The translations under genes and the position numbers were made by a program. The notes beneath the pieces were generated by a model, which was not told where the DNA came from, did not search any database, and worked only from the letters and a program-made list of their open reading frames with translations. 64,000 nucleotides of DNA, from positions 1-64,000 of the IMG/VR virus record IMGVR_UViG_3300025137_000017; one strand, 5' to 3'. Below are positions 36,424 to 42,859 of the stretch, in pieces (positions within the stretch are counted from its first letter, which is position 1; each line of letters starts with the position of its first letter). This stretch comes from a virus.

Positions 36424-37452
36424 TTGTTATTTGATGAAGTAGTAGTCTTTACCGATATCCATTTCGGTATGAAGAATAATAGTCGCCACCATAACCAAGA
36501 TTGTGAAGACTTTATTATATGGATGATTGATCAAGCAAAGGCTCGTGGTATTACAAAATGTATTTTTATGGGAGACTGGCACCATCAACGTGCAAGTATT
36601 AACGTAAGTACACTCAACTATACTATTAGTAATTTAAGAAGAATCAATGATGCATTTGAAGAAGTGTATATGATTATGGGAAATCACGATCTCTATTATA
36701 GAGAAAAACGTGAGATCAATAGTATACCAATGGCAGAAGAATATACTAATATTACTGTTGTTAATGAACTATTAGTTAAGGATGATATTGCTATTGTTCC
36801 CTGGCTAGTTGATGATGAGCATAAAGCTCTTAGAGATCTAAATGTAAAGTATATGTTTGGACACTTTGAGTTACCTAGTTTCTATATGAATGCAATGGTA
36901 CAAATGCCTGATCATGGACATGGAGTTAAAGCTGAAGATTTAACAAAACCTGAGCTTGTGTTTAGTGGACACTTCCACAAACGCCAAAGAGTAGGCAATA
37001 TTATATATACAGGCAATGCTTTTCCACATAATTACTCAGATGCATGGGACGATGACAGAGGACTTATGTTCTTAAAATGGGGAGGACAGCCAGAGTATGT
37101 TGTTTGGCCTGATGCTCCTAAATATAGAACAATATCTTTAAGTAAACTTATTGACAAACCCGAAGAAGTGTTGTCTAATAAAGTACATTGTCGTATTGCA
37201 CTAGATGTTCCTATTACATATGAAGAAGCAAACTTTATTAAAGAAACATTTGCCGCCCAATACAATCTCCGTGAGATTGCTCTTATGCCTAGCAAGAAAG
37301 AGGAACACACAAATGATTGGAATACTGGGATAGATATCGAAGTTGAGAATGTGGATCAGATAGTCCTAAGTCAGCTGGAAACAATACAAAGTGATACTAT
37401 AAAAAACGAACTACTAATCAACATATATAACGGTTTATCAATAAATGCTTAG
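36424..37452 (+). CDS. 47: Recombination endonuclease subunit gp47 (Mre11-like, 342 aa)
   Basis: Calcineurin-like metallophosphoesterase of the SbcD/Mre11 family. Metal-binding motifs appear in order: FTDIHFG (D-x-H), FMGDWHH (GD-x-H), MGNHDLYY (GNHD) and FSGHFHKRQ (G-H-x-H). With gp46 it resects DNA ends for recombination-dependent replication and host DNA breakdown. Length and order are normal. The initiation codon appears to be TTG at 36424, preceded by AAAGGA with the same spacing as at gp55; no ATG lies before the first metal motif except after residue 15. It overlaps gp46 by eight bases. Confidence 0.92.
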   Translation: MLFDEVVVFTDIHFGMKNNSRHHNQDCEDFIIWMIDQAKARGITKCIFMGDWHHQRASINVSTLNYTISNLRRINDAFEEVYMIMGNHDLYYREKREINSIPMAEEYTNITVVNELLVKDDIAIVPWLVDDEHKALRDLNVKYMFGHFELPSFYMNAMVQMPDHGHGVKAEDLTKPELVFSGHFHKRQRVGNIIYTGNAFPHNYSDAWDDDRGLMFLKWGGQPEYVVWPDAPKYRTISLSKLIDKPEEVLSNKVHCRIALDVPITYEEANFIKETFAAQYNLREIALMPSKKEEHTNDWNTGIDIEVENVDQIVLSQLETIQSDTIKNELLINIYNGLSINA

Positions 37453-39214
37453 AATCAAGAATATTACAGTAAAAAACTTCATGAGTGTGGGTAATGTCAC
37501 CCAAGCGATACAATTTGATGATCAAGGACTAACACTAGTCCTAGGTAATAACGTAGACTTAGGTGGAGACGGTTCTCGTAACGGAACAGGCAAAACTACA
37601 ATAGTTAATGCCTTAAGTTATGCACTATATGGAAATGCTCTGTATAATATTAAGAAGGATAATCTAGTTAACAAGACCAATAACAAACAAATGTTAGTAA
37701 CTGTTGACTTTGAAATGAATGGACAGAGTTATCGTATTGAACGAGGTAGAAAACCAAACTTATTCAAGTATATAGTCAATGATGTGGACAATGCATCAAC
37801 AGATGAGATGCAGGGAGAAGGTCGTGAGAGTCAAGCAGTAATTGAACGTACATTAGGTATGAGTCATACAATGTTTAAACATGTTGTGGCACTTAATACA
37901 TATACAGAACCTTTCTTAAGTATGAGAGCTAATGATCAACGTGAACTTATTGAACAATTACTTGGTATTACTAAACTTAGTGAGAAAGCTGACTTACTAA
38001 AAGATCTTGTGAAGCAGAACAAAGATAGTATTCAAGAAGAAACATATAAAATTAGAGGTACTGAAGAAGCTAATGAACGTATTGGTAGCAGTATTAAAGA
38101 TCTAGAACGCAGGCAGTCAATATGGTTTACTAGACGAGATAAAGATGTTACAGATCTCCAACAGGAACTATCAGATCTTGAGAAAGTTAATATTGATGCT
38201 GAATTACAGGCACATATTAACTTTACAGAGTTTAATACTCGTAGAACACAGATAGATACAGTAAATGGCGAGATTGCACGTTTACAAACTACTATTGAAC
38301 GTGAGCAGAAGCGTATGGATAAGGCACAAAAGGACCTGGATCATACTCTAGATCATAAATGTTATGCATGTGGTCAGGATCTACATGATGAAGCACATGA
38401 AAAGATTGTAGCAACTAAGACAGAAGCGGTTGCAGATTCAGTAAGACACATTACTTCTGACAGCGAAAAGATAAATGATTATAAGAGTGCCTTAACGGAT
38501 ATTGGTGAACTAGGCAAAGCACCTGTACTGCATTATAACACAGTACAAGAAGCATATGAACACCAAAACAAGATGAGTGCCGCAGGTACAGAGATTAAAC
38601 GTAAGCAAGAAGAACTAGATCCATATGAGGAGCAAATTGATACACTTCGCAATACTGGTTTACAAGAAATAGACTGGAGCGAAGTCAATAGACTCACAGA
38701 GCTTAAAGATCACCAGGACTTCCTATTAAAGTTGCTTACAAACAAAGACAGTTTTATCCGTAAAAGGATTATTGAACAAAACCTACAGTTTATGAATAGT
38801 AGGTTAGAGTATTATATTACTCGTTTGGGATTACCACATGAAGTGCAGTTCCAATCGGATCTAACAGTTAGTATTATACAACTAGGACAGGATTTAGACT
38901 TTGACAATCTATCTCGTGGTGAACGTAACAGACTTATATTAGGTTTAAGTTGGGCGTTCAGAGATGTGTTTGAGAGTATGAATCATCCTATTAACCTAAT
39001 ATGTATTGATGAACTTGTTGATAGTGGTATGGATACTATTGGTGTTGAGAGTGCTCTAGGAGTACTTAAAAAGATGGAGCGTGAACGTAATAAAAATATT
39101 TTGCTTATTTCTCATAGGGACGAACTTGTTGGCCGTGTTAGTAGTGTACTACAAGTCACAAAGGAAAATGGATTTACAACGTTCAGTACAGAAGTGGAAA
39201 TAGTTGACGCATAA
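37445..39214 (+). CDS. 46: Recombination endonuclease subunit gp46 (Rad50/SMC-like, 589 aa)
   Basis: SbcC/Rad50-type ATPase. Walker A is RNGTGKTT (residues about 45-52). A long coiled coil is interrupted by the zinc hook CYAC at about residues 305-308. The ABC signature is LSRGERNRLILGLSWAF (about 487-503) and Walker B is LICIDELVDSGMD (about 520). It partners gp47 as the ATP-driven end-processing complex. The ATG at 37445 lies within the last codons of gp47, so translation is coupled. Size and domain order match T4 gp46 (560 residues). Confidence 0.94.
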   Translation: MLRIKNITVKNFMSVGNVTQAIQFDDQGLTLVLGNNVDLGGDGSRNGTGKTTIVNALSYALYGNALYNIKKDNLVNKTNNKQMLVTVDFEMNGQSYRIERGRKPNLFKYIVNDVDNASTDEMQGEGRESQAVIERTLGMSHTMFKHVVALNTYTEPFLSMRANDQRELIEQLLGITKLSEKADLLKDLVKQNKDSIQEETYKIRGTEEANERIGSSIKDLERRQSIWFTRRDKDVTDLQQELSDLEKVNIDAELQAHINFTEFNTRRTQIDTVNGEIARLQTTIEREQKRMDKAQKDLDHTLDHKCYACGQDLHDEAHEKIVATKTEAVADSVRHITSDSEKINDYKSALTDIGELGKAPVLHYNTVQEAYEHQNKMSAAGTEIKRKQEELDPYEEQIDTLRNTGLQEIDWSEVNRLTELKDHQDFLLKLLTNKDSFIRKRIIEQNLQFMNSRLEYYITRLGLPHEVQFQSDLTVSIIQLGQDLDFDNLSRGERNRLILGLSWAFRDVFESMNHPINLICIDELVDSGMDTIGVESALGVLKKMERERNKNILLISHRDELVGRVSSVLQVTKENGFTTFSTEVEIVDA

Positions 39215-39880: not shown

Positions 39881-40460
39881 CTACCCGTTCTTTTACTTTT
39901 ACGATTTGGAATTTGACGCAGATAAAATTTTAGAATTCGTCAACACTATTCCACAAAACCAATGGATAGGCCCACATATTGGAAATTATGATCCTGATGT
40001 TAAGGTTGAACCACATAGAGCAGACAACAAATTATGGACTGCTAATAATAGAGATACAGACTTCACAGCATGTGAAGAAATAAACAAGATTGCGAAATAC
40101 TTCGATACTTACTATACGAGTATGATGATTAAGAAAAGTATAAATGGATTCAATGCTCCGTTTCATCCTCTGATGCAAAATGCAGACTACGATAAAAAAC
40201 ATAACATTGTCCGTACATTTGATATCATTGTTCCTATACAAGGTGGCTTTATGGAAAGCCCGCTCGAAGCTATTGATACAAAGACAGGTGAACATTATTC
40301 ATTAGTACCTAAGGGTTTAGCTTTTATGGTACCAAATGATCCTAGTTGGCATTATAGTTGGTTAGAAACTATATACGATTTTAGATATACTCTTCATCTT
40401 CGTGGTGTAATGCCACAAACATATGAGAAGATAAAGGAACTATATCTTAAAAATGGGTGA
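39873..40460 (+). CDS. Hypothetical protein, possibly oxygenase-like (195 aa)
   Basis: Begins MTNYPFFYFYDLEFDADKILEFVNTIP. The C-terminal half (IVRTFDIIVPIQGGFMESPLEAID, then KGLAFMVPNDPSWHYSWLE and FRYTLHLRGVM) has the strand spacing of a beta-helix oxygenase, with a His-x5-10-Arg pair, but the proximal H-x-D is not clear (possibly FHPLMQNAD). This makes catalytic activity uncertain. The ATG at 39873 follows AAGGAAC and overlaps the previous gene by eight bases. Paired with the preceding oxygenase it may form a two-protein module. Confidence 0.5.
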   Translation: MTNYPFFYFYDLEFDADKILEFVNTIPQNQWIGPHIGNYDPDVKVEPHRADNKLWTANNRDTDFTACEEINKIAKYFDTYYTSMMIKKSINGFNAPFHPLMQNADYDKKHNIVRTFDIIVPIQGGFMESPLEAIDTKTGEHYSLVPKGLAFMVPNDPSWHYSWLETIYDFRYTLHLRGVMPQTYEKIKELYLKNG

Positions 40461-40917
40461 TTGGAAGTATAAAAGACAGATTGTCGAGAGTCTACCGGAA
40501 GACTGTGTCGGCTTTGTATACATCATCACTAATACTATTACAGGCAAAAAGTACATTGGCAAAAAACTGGCAAAATTCGCAAAAACAAAATATAAAATGC
40601 ACACACAAAAAAATGGCAAAAAAGTTAGAAAAAAGATAAGATCAAAAATAGACTCAGACTGGCAAGAATATTATGGCTCCTCAAAGGCACTAACAGCAGA
40701 TATAGAAAACTTAGGCAAAGACAAATTTAAAAGAGAGATATTGTTCTATTGTGCCTCAAAGGCAGAATGCTCATACGTTGAAGCAAGAGAACAATTCACA
40801 CACAGGGTACTTGAAAGTGATGATTACTATAATGGTCACATACAAGTTCGTGTTCATGGCTCACATATACTAACAGAACAACTCTTAAACAATCCCACAG
40901 ACACAAAGTCAAACTAA
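40453..40917 (+). CDS. GIY-YIG family endonuclease (154 aa)
   Basis: The GIY-YIG core is visible at residues about 19-37: GFVYIITNTITGKKYIGKK, in which GFVY stands for GIY and KYIG for YIG. A basic insertion rich in Lys follows (KMHTQKNGKKVRKKIRSK), then WQEYYGSS and FKREILFYCAS, strands seen in T4-like freestanding GIY-YIG proteins. The Glu in YVEAREQFTHRVL could be the metal ligand. It overlaps the previous gene by eight bases. Its A-rich codon use stands out from its neighbours, consistent with a mobile freestanding homing nuclease. It is followed by a long gene-free stretch. Confidence 0.8.
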   Translation: MGDWKYKRQIVESLPEDCVGFVYIITNTITGKKYIGKKLAKFAKTKYKMHTQKNGKKVRKKIRSKIDSDWQEYYGSSKALTADIENLGKDKFKREILFYCASKAECSYVEAREQFTHRVLESDDYYNGHIQVRVHGSHILTEQLLNNPTDTKSN

Positions 40918-41260
40918 TATAGGCAAAGAATGCTCCGATTGGTCGTGATAGCTCGACCCACCTTGAACGCATGGGAACGCATGTTTGGATCTGGTGTAGC
41001 AAAGTGTCACTGCGTTGGTTTGACAAACCGAAATGATCAAGCTCTTCTGACAATTGAAACTTGAGGGTAGCACAAAGTCGTTGATATGGCAATGTGTGTT
41101 CCTGCGTTATTAAGCAGTAAGTAAAAAGGTACCGCGTAACCGCCTTTTCCTAGCGTTAATTAGGTTTTACTATATCGATGTGTTGACTTTGACGGGAAAA
41201 GTCGATTTTGCATTTGGCCTTATCAGGCTAAGTGTGAATGACAGATCAAGGAAAAGACGT
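40918..41260 (+). ncRNA. Candidate structured noncoding RNA or regulatory region
   Basis: No convincing coding frame on either strand. The DNA is more GC-rich than its AT-rich surroundings (33 of 60 bases at 40921-40980, about 25 of 60 in each of the next two lines). It holds several possible stems: GGTCG 40941-40945 with CGACC 40954-40958; GGTTT/AAACC around 41016-41028; AAAAGG/CCTTTT 41124-41148; GACTTT 41185-41190 with AAAGTC 41198-41203. A GCATG element is repeated near 40970-40983. I could not match it to tRNA, tmRNA, RNase P, 6S, SRP or a known riboswitch. The strand is assumed from the flanking genes. It could also be an origin or attachment region. Confidence 0.35.
41123..41150 (+). 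terminator. Possible weak terminator hairpin
   Basis: AAAAAGG at 41123-41129 can pair with CCTTTT at 41143-41148 around a GC-rich loop, the 3' arm ending in a short T run. This could end transcripts from the gp55-gp46-nuclease operon or the candidate RNA. The T tract is short, so confidence is low. Confidence 0.3.
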
Positions 41261-41272
41261 ACATAAATACAC
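41261..41272 (+). promoter_or_regulatory. T4-late-promoter-like motif (CATAAATACA)
   Basis: ACATAAATACAC, upstream of the gene at 41377. It leaves a leader of roughly 100 bases that contains two tetraloop hairpins. Confidence 0.5.
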
Positions 41273-41311
41273 TATAATATAAACCATATAGATATTAGTA
41301 ATATTAATCGA

Positions 41312-41351
41312 AATACCGTTAGGTATTGAAGATTAGATGCCGTATGGCATC
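41312..41351 (+). promoter_or_regulatory. Paired leader hairpins before the 41377 gene
   Basis: AATACC 41312-41317 pairs perfectly with GGTATT 41322-41327 (loop GTTA). Eight bases later GATGCC 41336-41341 pairs with GGCATC 41346-41351 (loop GTAT). Both lie between the late-type promoter and the ATG at 41377, so they could stabilise the mRNA or control translation. Confidence 0.5.
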
Positions 41352-41376
41352 ACTAATATAACAGCAAAGATATATA

Positions 41377-41817
41377 ATGAACTTCGACATATTCAAAATG
41401 AAATTCCTTGAGTGGACAGAGAATGTAATTGAGCAGAAAAAAGAAGATGGTTTTTCTATCTGTCCGTTTGCCAAAAGGGCACGTCTAGACAATAAAATAC
41501 AGTTTATAGATTGTACAATAGCTACCAGTGAGTTGCTTACATTTAACAAAGAACGATACGAAATAGGTATTGCTTGGTTGGGTGATTCAGTAGACATGTC
41601 TATCATTGATGAAGTTCTAGAGCGTTATAAGGCAGAAAATCCTGACCTATTATACTTTACAAGTACAACAGATTCAGGATACTTTGCTAAGAACTTTACT
41701 AATTGTGTGTTTATTCAATTAAGAGGTGATATAGATATGCGGAGGGAACAGTTACACAAAACCAAGTACTATGACAGTTGGCCAGAGCATTACTATAAAA
41801 TAATAACCGGGCACTAG
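41377..41817 (+). CDS. Hypothetical protein (146 aa)
   Basis: Not recognised. It starts MNFDIFKMKFLEWTENVIEQ and contains SICPFAKRARL (a CPFA motif near residue 30), then alternating helix and strand with YFTSTTDSGYFAKNFTNCVFIQL. An alpha/beta single domain seems likely; the lone CP motif recalls thioredoxin-like or DUF1415-type proteins but is not enough to assign either. No strong ribosome site precedes the ATG; the leader instead holds two hairpins. It converges on the gp51-like gene, the two stop codons sharing the bases CTAG. Confidence 0.5.
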   Translation: MNFDIFKMKFLEWTENVIEQKKEDGFSICPFAKRARLDNKIQFIDCTIATSELLTFNKERYEIGIAWLGDSVDMSIIDEVLERYKAENPDLLYFTSTTDSGYFAKNFTNCVFIQLRGDIDMRREQLHKTKYYDSWPEHYYKIITGH

Positions 41818-42022: not shown

Positions 42023-42859
42023 TCAACCTACGAAAAAATTTGATACATCCAGTTCTACTTCTTGTGACCATTCATTAGAACATTCAATACATTTGGCTTT
42101 GAAATTTGTATCCAAGCCATCATCACTTAATGCTTCAATTCTATCTTTGATTGCATCGTGATCTTTTTTACTAATATTTTGTAACCACTCCCGAATCATA
42201 TCTTTATCTACAATAACTTCTGAACTGTCGGGTGCCTGGACACTTGAGATACAACTTGTGATTACATCAATAGTTAGTGTAGCAAGTTCAACAAAAGTTT
42301 CTCCAAACATTTTAGATTTTGTATTATCATCTGCTTCACTGGCAATTAGATTATCTACCATCTTTTGTCGTTTGATATTTTGAATTTGCATGAGAGTCCT
42401 ATCATCAATTGTATAGGGTCTAACTATTATCTTAAAGTTACTTTCCAGTCTTACTTCTGTATCAAATTCAACTTCTTTAATTTGTGATAGTAGTTGAGCA
42501 CTATCAATGGTCAATTGATTAAGGTGTTTACATTTTGGGCATTCAAGATCTACGTCAAACTTGTTACCATAAGTTGCTTGTCTAATAGCAATTAGTAACA
42601 CAAGCAGATCGTTAACTGGAATCTGTCTGGGATTTTGTATATCCGGACAGCATGATTCAAGTAGTGCAATATTGGCTTCCCCATTAAACAACGCATCAGG
42701 CGTTTTTGTTAACAGTTCGTCTCTGGCACTCATAGGATACACGGCTAGTTCATTATCAACACTTAATTTTGGCTTTGGATCGTACCATTTTGCCCCTGAA
42801 GGCAACGATACAAACACAGCAGGCTTTTTATATGCCTGGATTAGAGGATTTTCTGACAT
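42023..42859 (-). CDS. 26: Baseplate hub protein gp26-like (278 aa)
   Basis: Matches the T4 gp26 family found in the hub. The N-terminus (VSLPSGAKWYDPKPKLS, then LAVYPMSARDELLTKTPDALFNGEA) is characteristic. Two Cys pairs (CPKC near residue 110 and CIEC near 258) should form a zinc ribbon, as in marine gp26 homologues. The middle (RPYTIDDRTLMQIQNIKRQ) is helical. It is transcribed leftward, opposite to the genes on both sides, from a GTATAAATAC promoter at 42904-42913, and is followed by gp51. T4 gp26 (208 residues) is a bit smaller. Confidence 0.82.
   Translation of the reverse strand: MSENPLIQAYKKPAVFVSLPSGAKWYDPKPKLSVDNELAVYPMSARDELLTKTPDALFNGEANIALLESCCPDIQNPRQIPVNDLLVLLIAIRQATYGNKFDVDLECPKCKHLNQLTIDSAQLLSQIKEVEFDTEVRLESNFKIIVRPYTIDDRTLMQIQNIKRQKMVDNLIASEADDNTKSKMFGETFVELATLTIDVITSCISSVQAPDSSEVIVDKDMIREWLQNISKKDHDAIKDRIEALSDDGLDTNFKAKCIECSNEWSQEVELDVSNFFVG

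Follow-up and report, generated by a model that had tools for sequence, protein, structure and literature searches.

A conserved, putatively structured RNA beside a nuclease gene in many uncultured bacterial viruses

Many uncultured bacterial viruses carry, beside a nuclease gene, a region of about 340 bases that comparison of relatives indicates to be a structured RNA. We describe it from a 64,000-nucleotide stretch (hereafter the window: positions 1 to 64,000 of the IMG/VR record IMGVR_UViG_3300025137_000017), taken from a virus record of 135,611 bases with T4-like genes; the RNA likely extends from about 40920 to 41259. It represents a new and larger form of something partly known through the Rfam family RF01718 (Polynucleobacter-1), and its full extent, core and location are not described in the literature that we searched. 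On balance, we lean towards regarding it as a single-copy, free-standing and trans-acting structured RNA of T4-like phages, in which two copies of a phage-specific word would bind an external partner. With this, an orphan Rfam motif of 2010 becomes one module of a much larger and widespread phage RNA, one that offers a defined genomic place, a testable structure with two pseudoknots and an unusual twin-word signature.

The region had been singled out in an earlier note on this DNA as a gene-free, GC-rich and hairpin-rich stretch (40918-41260) behind a GIY-YIG nuclease gene, and proposed as a candidate novel noncoding RNA. The nuclease gene is indeed there: it encodes a SegE-like protein of 154 aa (40453..40917, + strand; Pfam SegE_GIY-YIG PF19835, E 1.6e-32, match spanning residues 4-130), and the stretch lies between it and a gene that we call 'Y' (41377..41817, + strand; 146 aa, PHROG 10325), the next gene after the RNA, which starts approximately 110 nt downstream. 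The stretch is also free of credible genes, as the sole + strand ORF of at least 40 aa inside it has 44 codons and open frames of at least 60 codons occur in antisense only; a bypass-type coding reading was rejected by eye, the frames not being kept open in relatives. The GC content is raised, only moderately so: with 43.1% vs 37.0% for the window, it stands at the 94th percentile among segments of 343 nt, some 1.85 SD up. The impression of hairpin richness did not hold for the single sequence, its minimum-free-energy z-score being only -0.36 for the + strand, where 32 of 100 shuffles reach an equally good fold, and -0.05 for the - strand. Single-sequence folding is thus ordinary, and the structure emerges only by comparing relatives. 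The comparison of conservation and covariation that the note had proposed found both, and the strong conservation and compensatory change support, as far as sequences can tell, a noncoding RNA.

Candidate loci were fetched with the baseplate protein and the SegE protein, and then compared with the RNA region by blastn. The noncoding part is 74-77% conserved in L005/L006, L010 and L016, while the identity of the gp26-like query protein is lower (56-57% in L005, L006 and L010, best segment; 41% in L016). By means of a protein-free DNA pattern of two core motifs, the 3' core (41018-41269) was recovered in at least 119 viral contigs, and over the loci examined an upstream core motif (GCTCT) was also present at 133 of 134 pattern places, the sole exception starting too near the contig end. 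The covariance model R1, built from an alignment (A1) of 38 sequences of the window-type set, scores the conserved 3' core of the window (41018..41269, + strand) at 231.9 bits (E 1.6e-63), the window being among the 38 model sequences, and it matches 65 of 81 loci outside the model at E < 1e-3, which are not independent counts since several loci represent the same or nearly the same phage. Eight of the 16 non-matches run up to a contig end or close to it (L035, L036, L042, L044, L053, L067, L074, L083) and seven have a different core (L023, L029, L055, L057, L058, L072, L085), so that downstream RNAs of the L023/L029/L055 type, missed by R1, were counted as non-hits; in the last one (L017) the terminal hairpin is lost or replaced and R1 reaches just 14 bits. 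Applied to 34 control loci (26 chance-prone matches of a looser pattern in bacterial genome contigs and 8 cultured-phage stretches), R1 gave one clear match, L237.

The RNA is present at one full-length copy each in 22 of the 25 phage records searched, extra short matches being the palindromic terminal hairpin read on the other strand. Among cultured phages, blastn of the window region and of the relatives' RNAs against 50,697 records yielded no homologue (chance-level pieces only), and R1 found no clear RNA in eight cultured-phage stretches around relatives of SegE or gene Y (best L251, 12.4 bits, E 0.12). Three side observations concern the margins of this distribution. The control match L237 (27.8 bits for the core, E 6e-6) is a contig of 4.5 kb that was assigned to a Bacteroidetes MAG and that probably derives from a phage. 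The RNA copy of L017 is possibly decaying. The seven loci with a different core carry it, RNA-like, at the same place downstream of SegE: L023 shares the 5' module of the window (module 'a', described below), the other six have by eye a 'c'-like 5' module, and those read as far as the end (L023, L029 and L055/057/058) show the same hairpin-plus-repeat ending, with ACATGAA as the copies.

The 38 representatives of A1 were clustered under 92% identity, and the helices were written from the window sequence, with P6 moved by one base before counting. Across A1, 88.6% of cells are paired vs 73.9% in shuffles, 35 of 53 pairs show a double change, and 325 cells are doubly changed vs 106.8 in shuffles, indicating that the overall shape of the predicted RNA is kept by evolution. 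Sliding the structure by 1-3 columns left just 32-45% of cells paired, a comparison that somewhat favours the unslid version, whose helices had been derived from the sequence of the window; the weakest measure, the number of further pair types, was reached by 25 of 500 shuffles.

The predicted core (all positions on the + strand) opens with P1 (41037-41041 with 41060-41064), paired in 100% of cells and changed on both sides in 4 of 5 pairs, and continues with P2 (41065-41069/41097-41101 and 41071-41074/41093-41096), with 73.5% of cells paired (81.3% for the outermost pair), mostly doubly changed. Inside the P2 loop lies the 5' strand of P3, a long-range pseudoknot helix of 11 bp (41079-41089 with 41170-41180; 82.2% paired, both sides changed in 8 of 11 pairs). 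The hairpin P4 (CUGC...GCAG, 41102..41117; 85.8% of cells paired) would form the second pseudoknot, through pairing of its loop GUUA (41106-41109) with UAAC (41137-41140) within P5; here 97.4% of cells are paired, and the varying pair is A-U 19 times, G-C 16 times and G-U 3 times. P5 itself (41125-41129 with 41143-41147; 94.7%) is followed by the hairpin P6 (41149-41152 with 41161-41164; 96.8%), by P7 (GACUUU...AAAGUC, 41185..41203), a hairpin read by eye from the sequence, and by the terminal hairpin P8 (41211-41219 with 41226-41234; 93.6%). G-U is the commonest type at four pairs on the + strand (21-27 of 38 rows), which fits an RNA of that strand. The hairpins could instead act as DNA, for example in a replication origin or a recombination site, structured single-strand DNA being conceivable and a recombination gene (46, an SbcC/gp46-like protein gene at 37445-39214) lying nearby; given that the G-U pairs are strand-specific and that two pseudoknots are conserved on a single strand, we hold such a DNA element to be highly improbable.

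The 5' part of the RNA is modular. The module found in the window, 'a' (40929..41038, + strand), has four helices that are upheld by covariation in a second alignment (A2, 16 sequences, with 96.0% of cells paired and 30 doubly changed cells vs 7.1 in shuffles), from which L011, L014, L114 and L140 were left out, the module's 3' hairpin being absent or the sequence cut too short. On the + strand, it comprises the hairpin Ha (GGUCG...CGACC, 40941..40958; 98.2% of cells paired), the closing helix Hb around the hairpin Hc (40959-40962 with 40993-40996; 96.9%) and the hairpin Hd (GGUUU-GAC-AAACC, 41017..41029; 96.3%), which covaries with GAUUU/AAAUC. The corresponding model, R2, also matches before more distant cores (L026, L037, L048, L052), before a different core in L023, and in L067, where the contig end cuts off the match. 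By a rough, regex-based typing of the at least 119 contigs listed, 77 have the 5' type 'a', 22 an RF01718-like type labelled P1, 9 type 'd' and 3 type 'c', with 8 left untyped.

RF01718 itself was detected in 8 of 17, 6 of 7 and 8 of 16 loci scanned, also before the core of freshwater relatives, and in nine loci (L073, L084, L107, L124, L142, L176, L186, L188, L215) it abuts a window-type core (150-173 bits). As RF01718 ends where the core begins, it is the 5' module of a larger RNA, one of several exchangeable modules of which the window carries another. The Rfam model (141 nt) covers the 5' part only, and the core, pseudoknots, repeats and phage locus are absent from it. The window stays below 37 bits against RF01718, with no match even to E 10 in 40700-41500, and shares the 3' core that follows this family in other phages. 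Nowhere in the window does an Rfam family attain its gathering score. The description as novel is nonetheless only partly right, because a core of the same type stands directly behind RF01718 in nine loci. Weinberg et al. 2010 (PMC2864571) mention Polynucleobacter-1 once in their main text, in a table, as probably an RNA, probably cis-regulatory and uncertain as a riboswitch, with Burkholderiales and fresh water/estuary as taxa. Full-text searches, which left subscription journals mostly uncovered, returned no later work on Polynucleobacter-1/RF01718 and none on GIY-YIG proteins with noncoding or guide RNA.

Searches by E-value gave no further Rfam families in the window, L144, L031, L029 and seven freshwater loci; a cow-rumen-2 match in L031 (20.5 bits, cut-off 66) did not recur and was taken as chance. 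ARAGORN found no tRNA in the window, neither ARAGORN nor Rfam at its cut-off identified the RNA as a tRNA or tmRNA, and a weak tRNA match (21.6 bits, cut-off 29) is in conflict with the covarying helix P1. Similar in kind are GOLLD and ROOL, presented in PMC12286853 as large, ornate and pseudoknotted phage RNAs. The window-type RNA differs from them in being shorter (approximately 340-400 nt) and in residing between recombination and baseplate genes, whereas GOLLD and ROOL are situated at tRNA islands; neither the window nor the relatives scanned gave an Rfam match to either family.

The oddest feature of the RNA, and the most promising handle on its function, is a pair of variable words. A short purine-rich word lies in the segment from P6 to P8 and recurs immediately behind P8, so that two direct repeats flank the 3' hairpin, usually identical within an RNA and different between RNAs. 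In the window both copies read GGAAAAG in the same sense (+ strand): copy 1 (41195..41201) lies in the loop and 3' arm of P7, the small hairpin before the terminal one, and copy 2 (41250..41256) in the 3' tail. The relatives have GGTGAAG, TGTCAAG, TGTGAAG, TGCCAAG, GGCGAAA, TGGTAAAG, GGATAAT, AGATAAT and others. The copy-2 hexamer was found in the RNA's own copy-1 segment in 67 of 95 RNAs, vs a mean of 6.5 and a maximum of 13 when segments were swapped (200 shuffles), the remaining 28 failing this fixed-window test; taking one RNA per distinct hexamer, the figures are 19 of 30 vs 1.7 (maximum 5). Two copies that paired with each other would not be expected to co-vary in the same sense. Iterative reverse transcription between the direct repeats was considered and dropped, as none of 17 phage records (17/17) had a reverse transcriptase match.

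No internal complement of the repeats beyond chance was detected within the RNAs (5.49 own vs 5.54 swapped, and 6.21 vs 6.18). A near relative with the window's word (L002) has a perfect complement, CUUUUCC, next to P5, and most relatives lack it. Genome-wide, the word is not enriched in 10 phage records (mean z 0.33 for own and 0.41 for other words; G015 and G016 fell outside this test, the script having found no copy), and no conserved target near start codons was seen across 71 ortholog groups of 12 phage records, the words of G015 and G016 being set by hand; 6-mer complements near start codons show a weak excess only (23 vs 16.6, sd 3.8). With neither an internal complement, nor enrichment, nor a start-codon site, the simplest remaining explanation is an external partner. 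Equally, the lack of word enrichment and of a conserved start-codon target means that the data point to no particular partner, which counts against the explanation that we favour. In this explanation, an exchangeable 5' module precedes a compact core that contains the two pseudoknots and closes with the terminal hairpin, and the RNA would display a phage-specific word (about 6-9 nt) at two places, the small hairpin before the terminal hairpin and a single-stranded 3' tail. These twin sites would most likely bind something external: a phage-specific protein, or a nucleic acid with which they would pair. Should the twin words prove to be recognition sites, the regulatory or targeting RNAs of phages would gain a new class.

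The order gp46 - nuclease - RNA - (Y) - gp26 recurs across many contigs; in the window the gp26-like baseplate hub protein gene lies at 42023-42859 on the - strand, and gene Y is variable in relatives, some of which lack it behind the RNA or have it there in inverted orientation. Among the at least 119 contigs listed, 83 have the SegE-like GIY-YIG gene directly upstream on the same strand and 23 have a PD-(D/E)XK nuclease instead (PF24608, E 1.3e-24; PHROG label 'RusA-like Holliday junction resolvase'), and a nuclease thus precedes the RNA in 106 of the 109 listed contigs with enough upstream sequence. The exceptions are L120, L129 and L149, in which neither type is found; ten contigs start less than 400 bases upstream of the RNA (L109, L112, L136, L137, L150, L154, L168, L177, L203, L218). 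Some side observations belong to this neighbourhood. L120, L129, L149 and L150 (one of them a contig of 330 kb) have the RNA core in other phage contexts, with no gp46 or gp26 in the stretch fetched, and L064 (1083-1319), unlike the remaining loci, has the core on the opposite strand to the SegE gene. SegE-like GIY-YIG proteins (phrog_447, phage records) are widely labelled 'NAD synthetase', probably a misannotation that was carried over.

Among the matches listed, RNAs with the 5' module 'a' stand behind both kinds of nuclease (61 GIY-YIG and 13 PD-(D/E)XK loci). Since the kind of nuclease swaps while the RNA type stays, no single nuclease goes with the RNA, which argues against the intron remnant or homing target at which the earlier note had hinted on account of the adjacent GIY-YIG gene. 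No interrupted gene was identified (in the window the RNA lies between complete genes), and Rfam models returned no group I or group II match, in agreement with the note's own failure to find a group I core; we regard this reading as scarcely credible.

The same swap weakens the idea of a guide RNA, whose twin words would direct cleavage by the neighbouring GIY-YIG or PD-(D/E)XK protein. Guide RNAs of the OMEGA/CRISPR type are structured, lie beside a nuclease gene and have a variable word near the 3' end. The RNA described here shares these traits, and the constancy of the nuclease neighbourhood, the shortness of the SegE-like protein and a phage-variable word, placed in a loop and in the 3' tail with no internal complement, would all suit a guide. 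It departs from such guides in its freely swapping nuclease folds, in its two copies of the word and in having no target found by the enrichment or start-codon tests, the words moreover being short (6-9 nt). As RNA type does not track nuclease type, three contigs have the RNA with no nuclease, and the gp46-nuclease-gp26 synteny alone accounts for the neighbourhood, we find a guide function very doubtful. A broader version, in which a programmable phage RNA uses its scaffold to show the word twice and so select a nucleic-acid target, possibly for an interchangeable nuclease, appears to us quite unlikely.

The nuclease neighbourhood also bears on whether the RNA is an element at the 3' UTR or operon end that controls or stabilises the nuclease mRNA. 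The same-strand position of the nuclease and the lack of a promoter in the window by consensus scan speak for such an element. The two nucleases with the same RNA type are, however, unrelated, an extra ORF intervenes between nuclease and RNA in L022, L048, L052, L072 and L085, the nuclease is missing from the three contigs named above, and in one clade a strong, near-consensus sigma-70 promoter (TTGACA-17-TATNNT) is located between the two (19 loci with scores of at least 7.2, from -363 to -417). Across the full set of 124 upstream regions, scores of at least 6 for promoters are barely above the controls (34 vs 24 for reverse complements), and in the window the consensus scan detected no good promoter or terminator; both results count against the free-standing RNA that we favour. 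We consider a 3' UTR element unlikely, if still deserving of some weight, and infer that the RNA may well have a transcript of its own.

A cis-regulatory role for the downstream gene, as its 5' leader or riboswitch, would accord with the co-directional gene Y closely following the RNA in the window, and with the RF01718 entry (cis-reg 'y', switch '?') in the table of Weinberg et al. 2010, who leaned that way. The downstream genes differ, though, so that no consistent gene class follows the RNA, and gp26 frequently lies in convergent orientation. Of 14 such loci checked, 6 have no co-directional ORF of at least 35 aa that starts between the RNA and gp26, the other 8 having one or more short co-directional ORFs (75 aa at most). 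Moreover, a box resembling the T4 late promoter often separates the RNA from Y. The T4 late promoter consensus is TATAAATA; the window has CATAAATA just after the RNA (41262..41269, + strand), and boxes of this kind come after the RNA in 28 of the relatives' 69 distinct tails vs 14% in shuffles. A leader function hence seems very unlikely to us, and the convergent gp26, the loci with no co-directional ORF and the differing downstream genes suggest that the RNA would act in trans. Ahead of gene Y, the window has two short, perfect hairpins, each with a loop of four bases (41312-41327 and 41336-41351), and similar hairpins (e.g., around GCTTCGC) occur after the RNA in many relatives.
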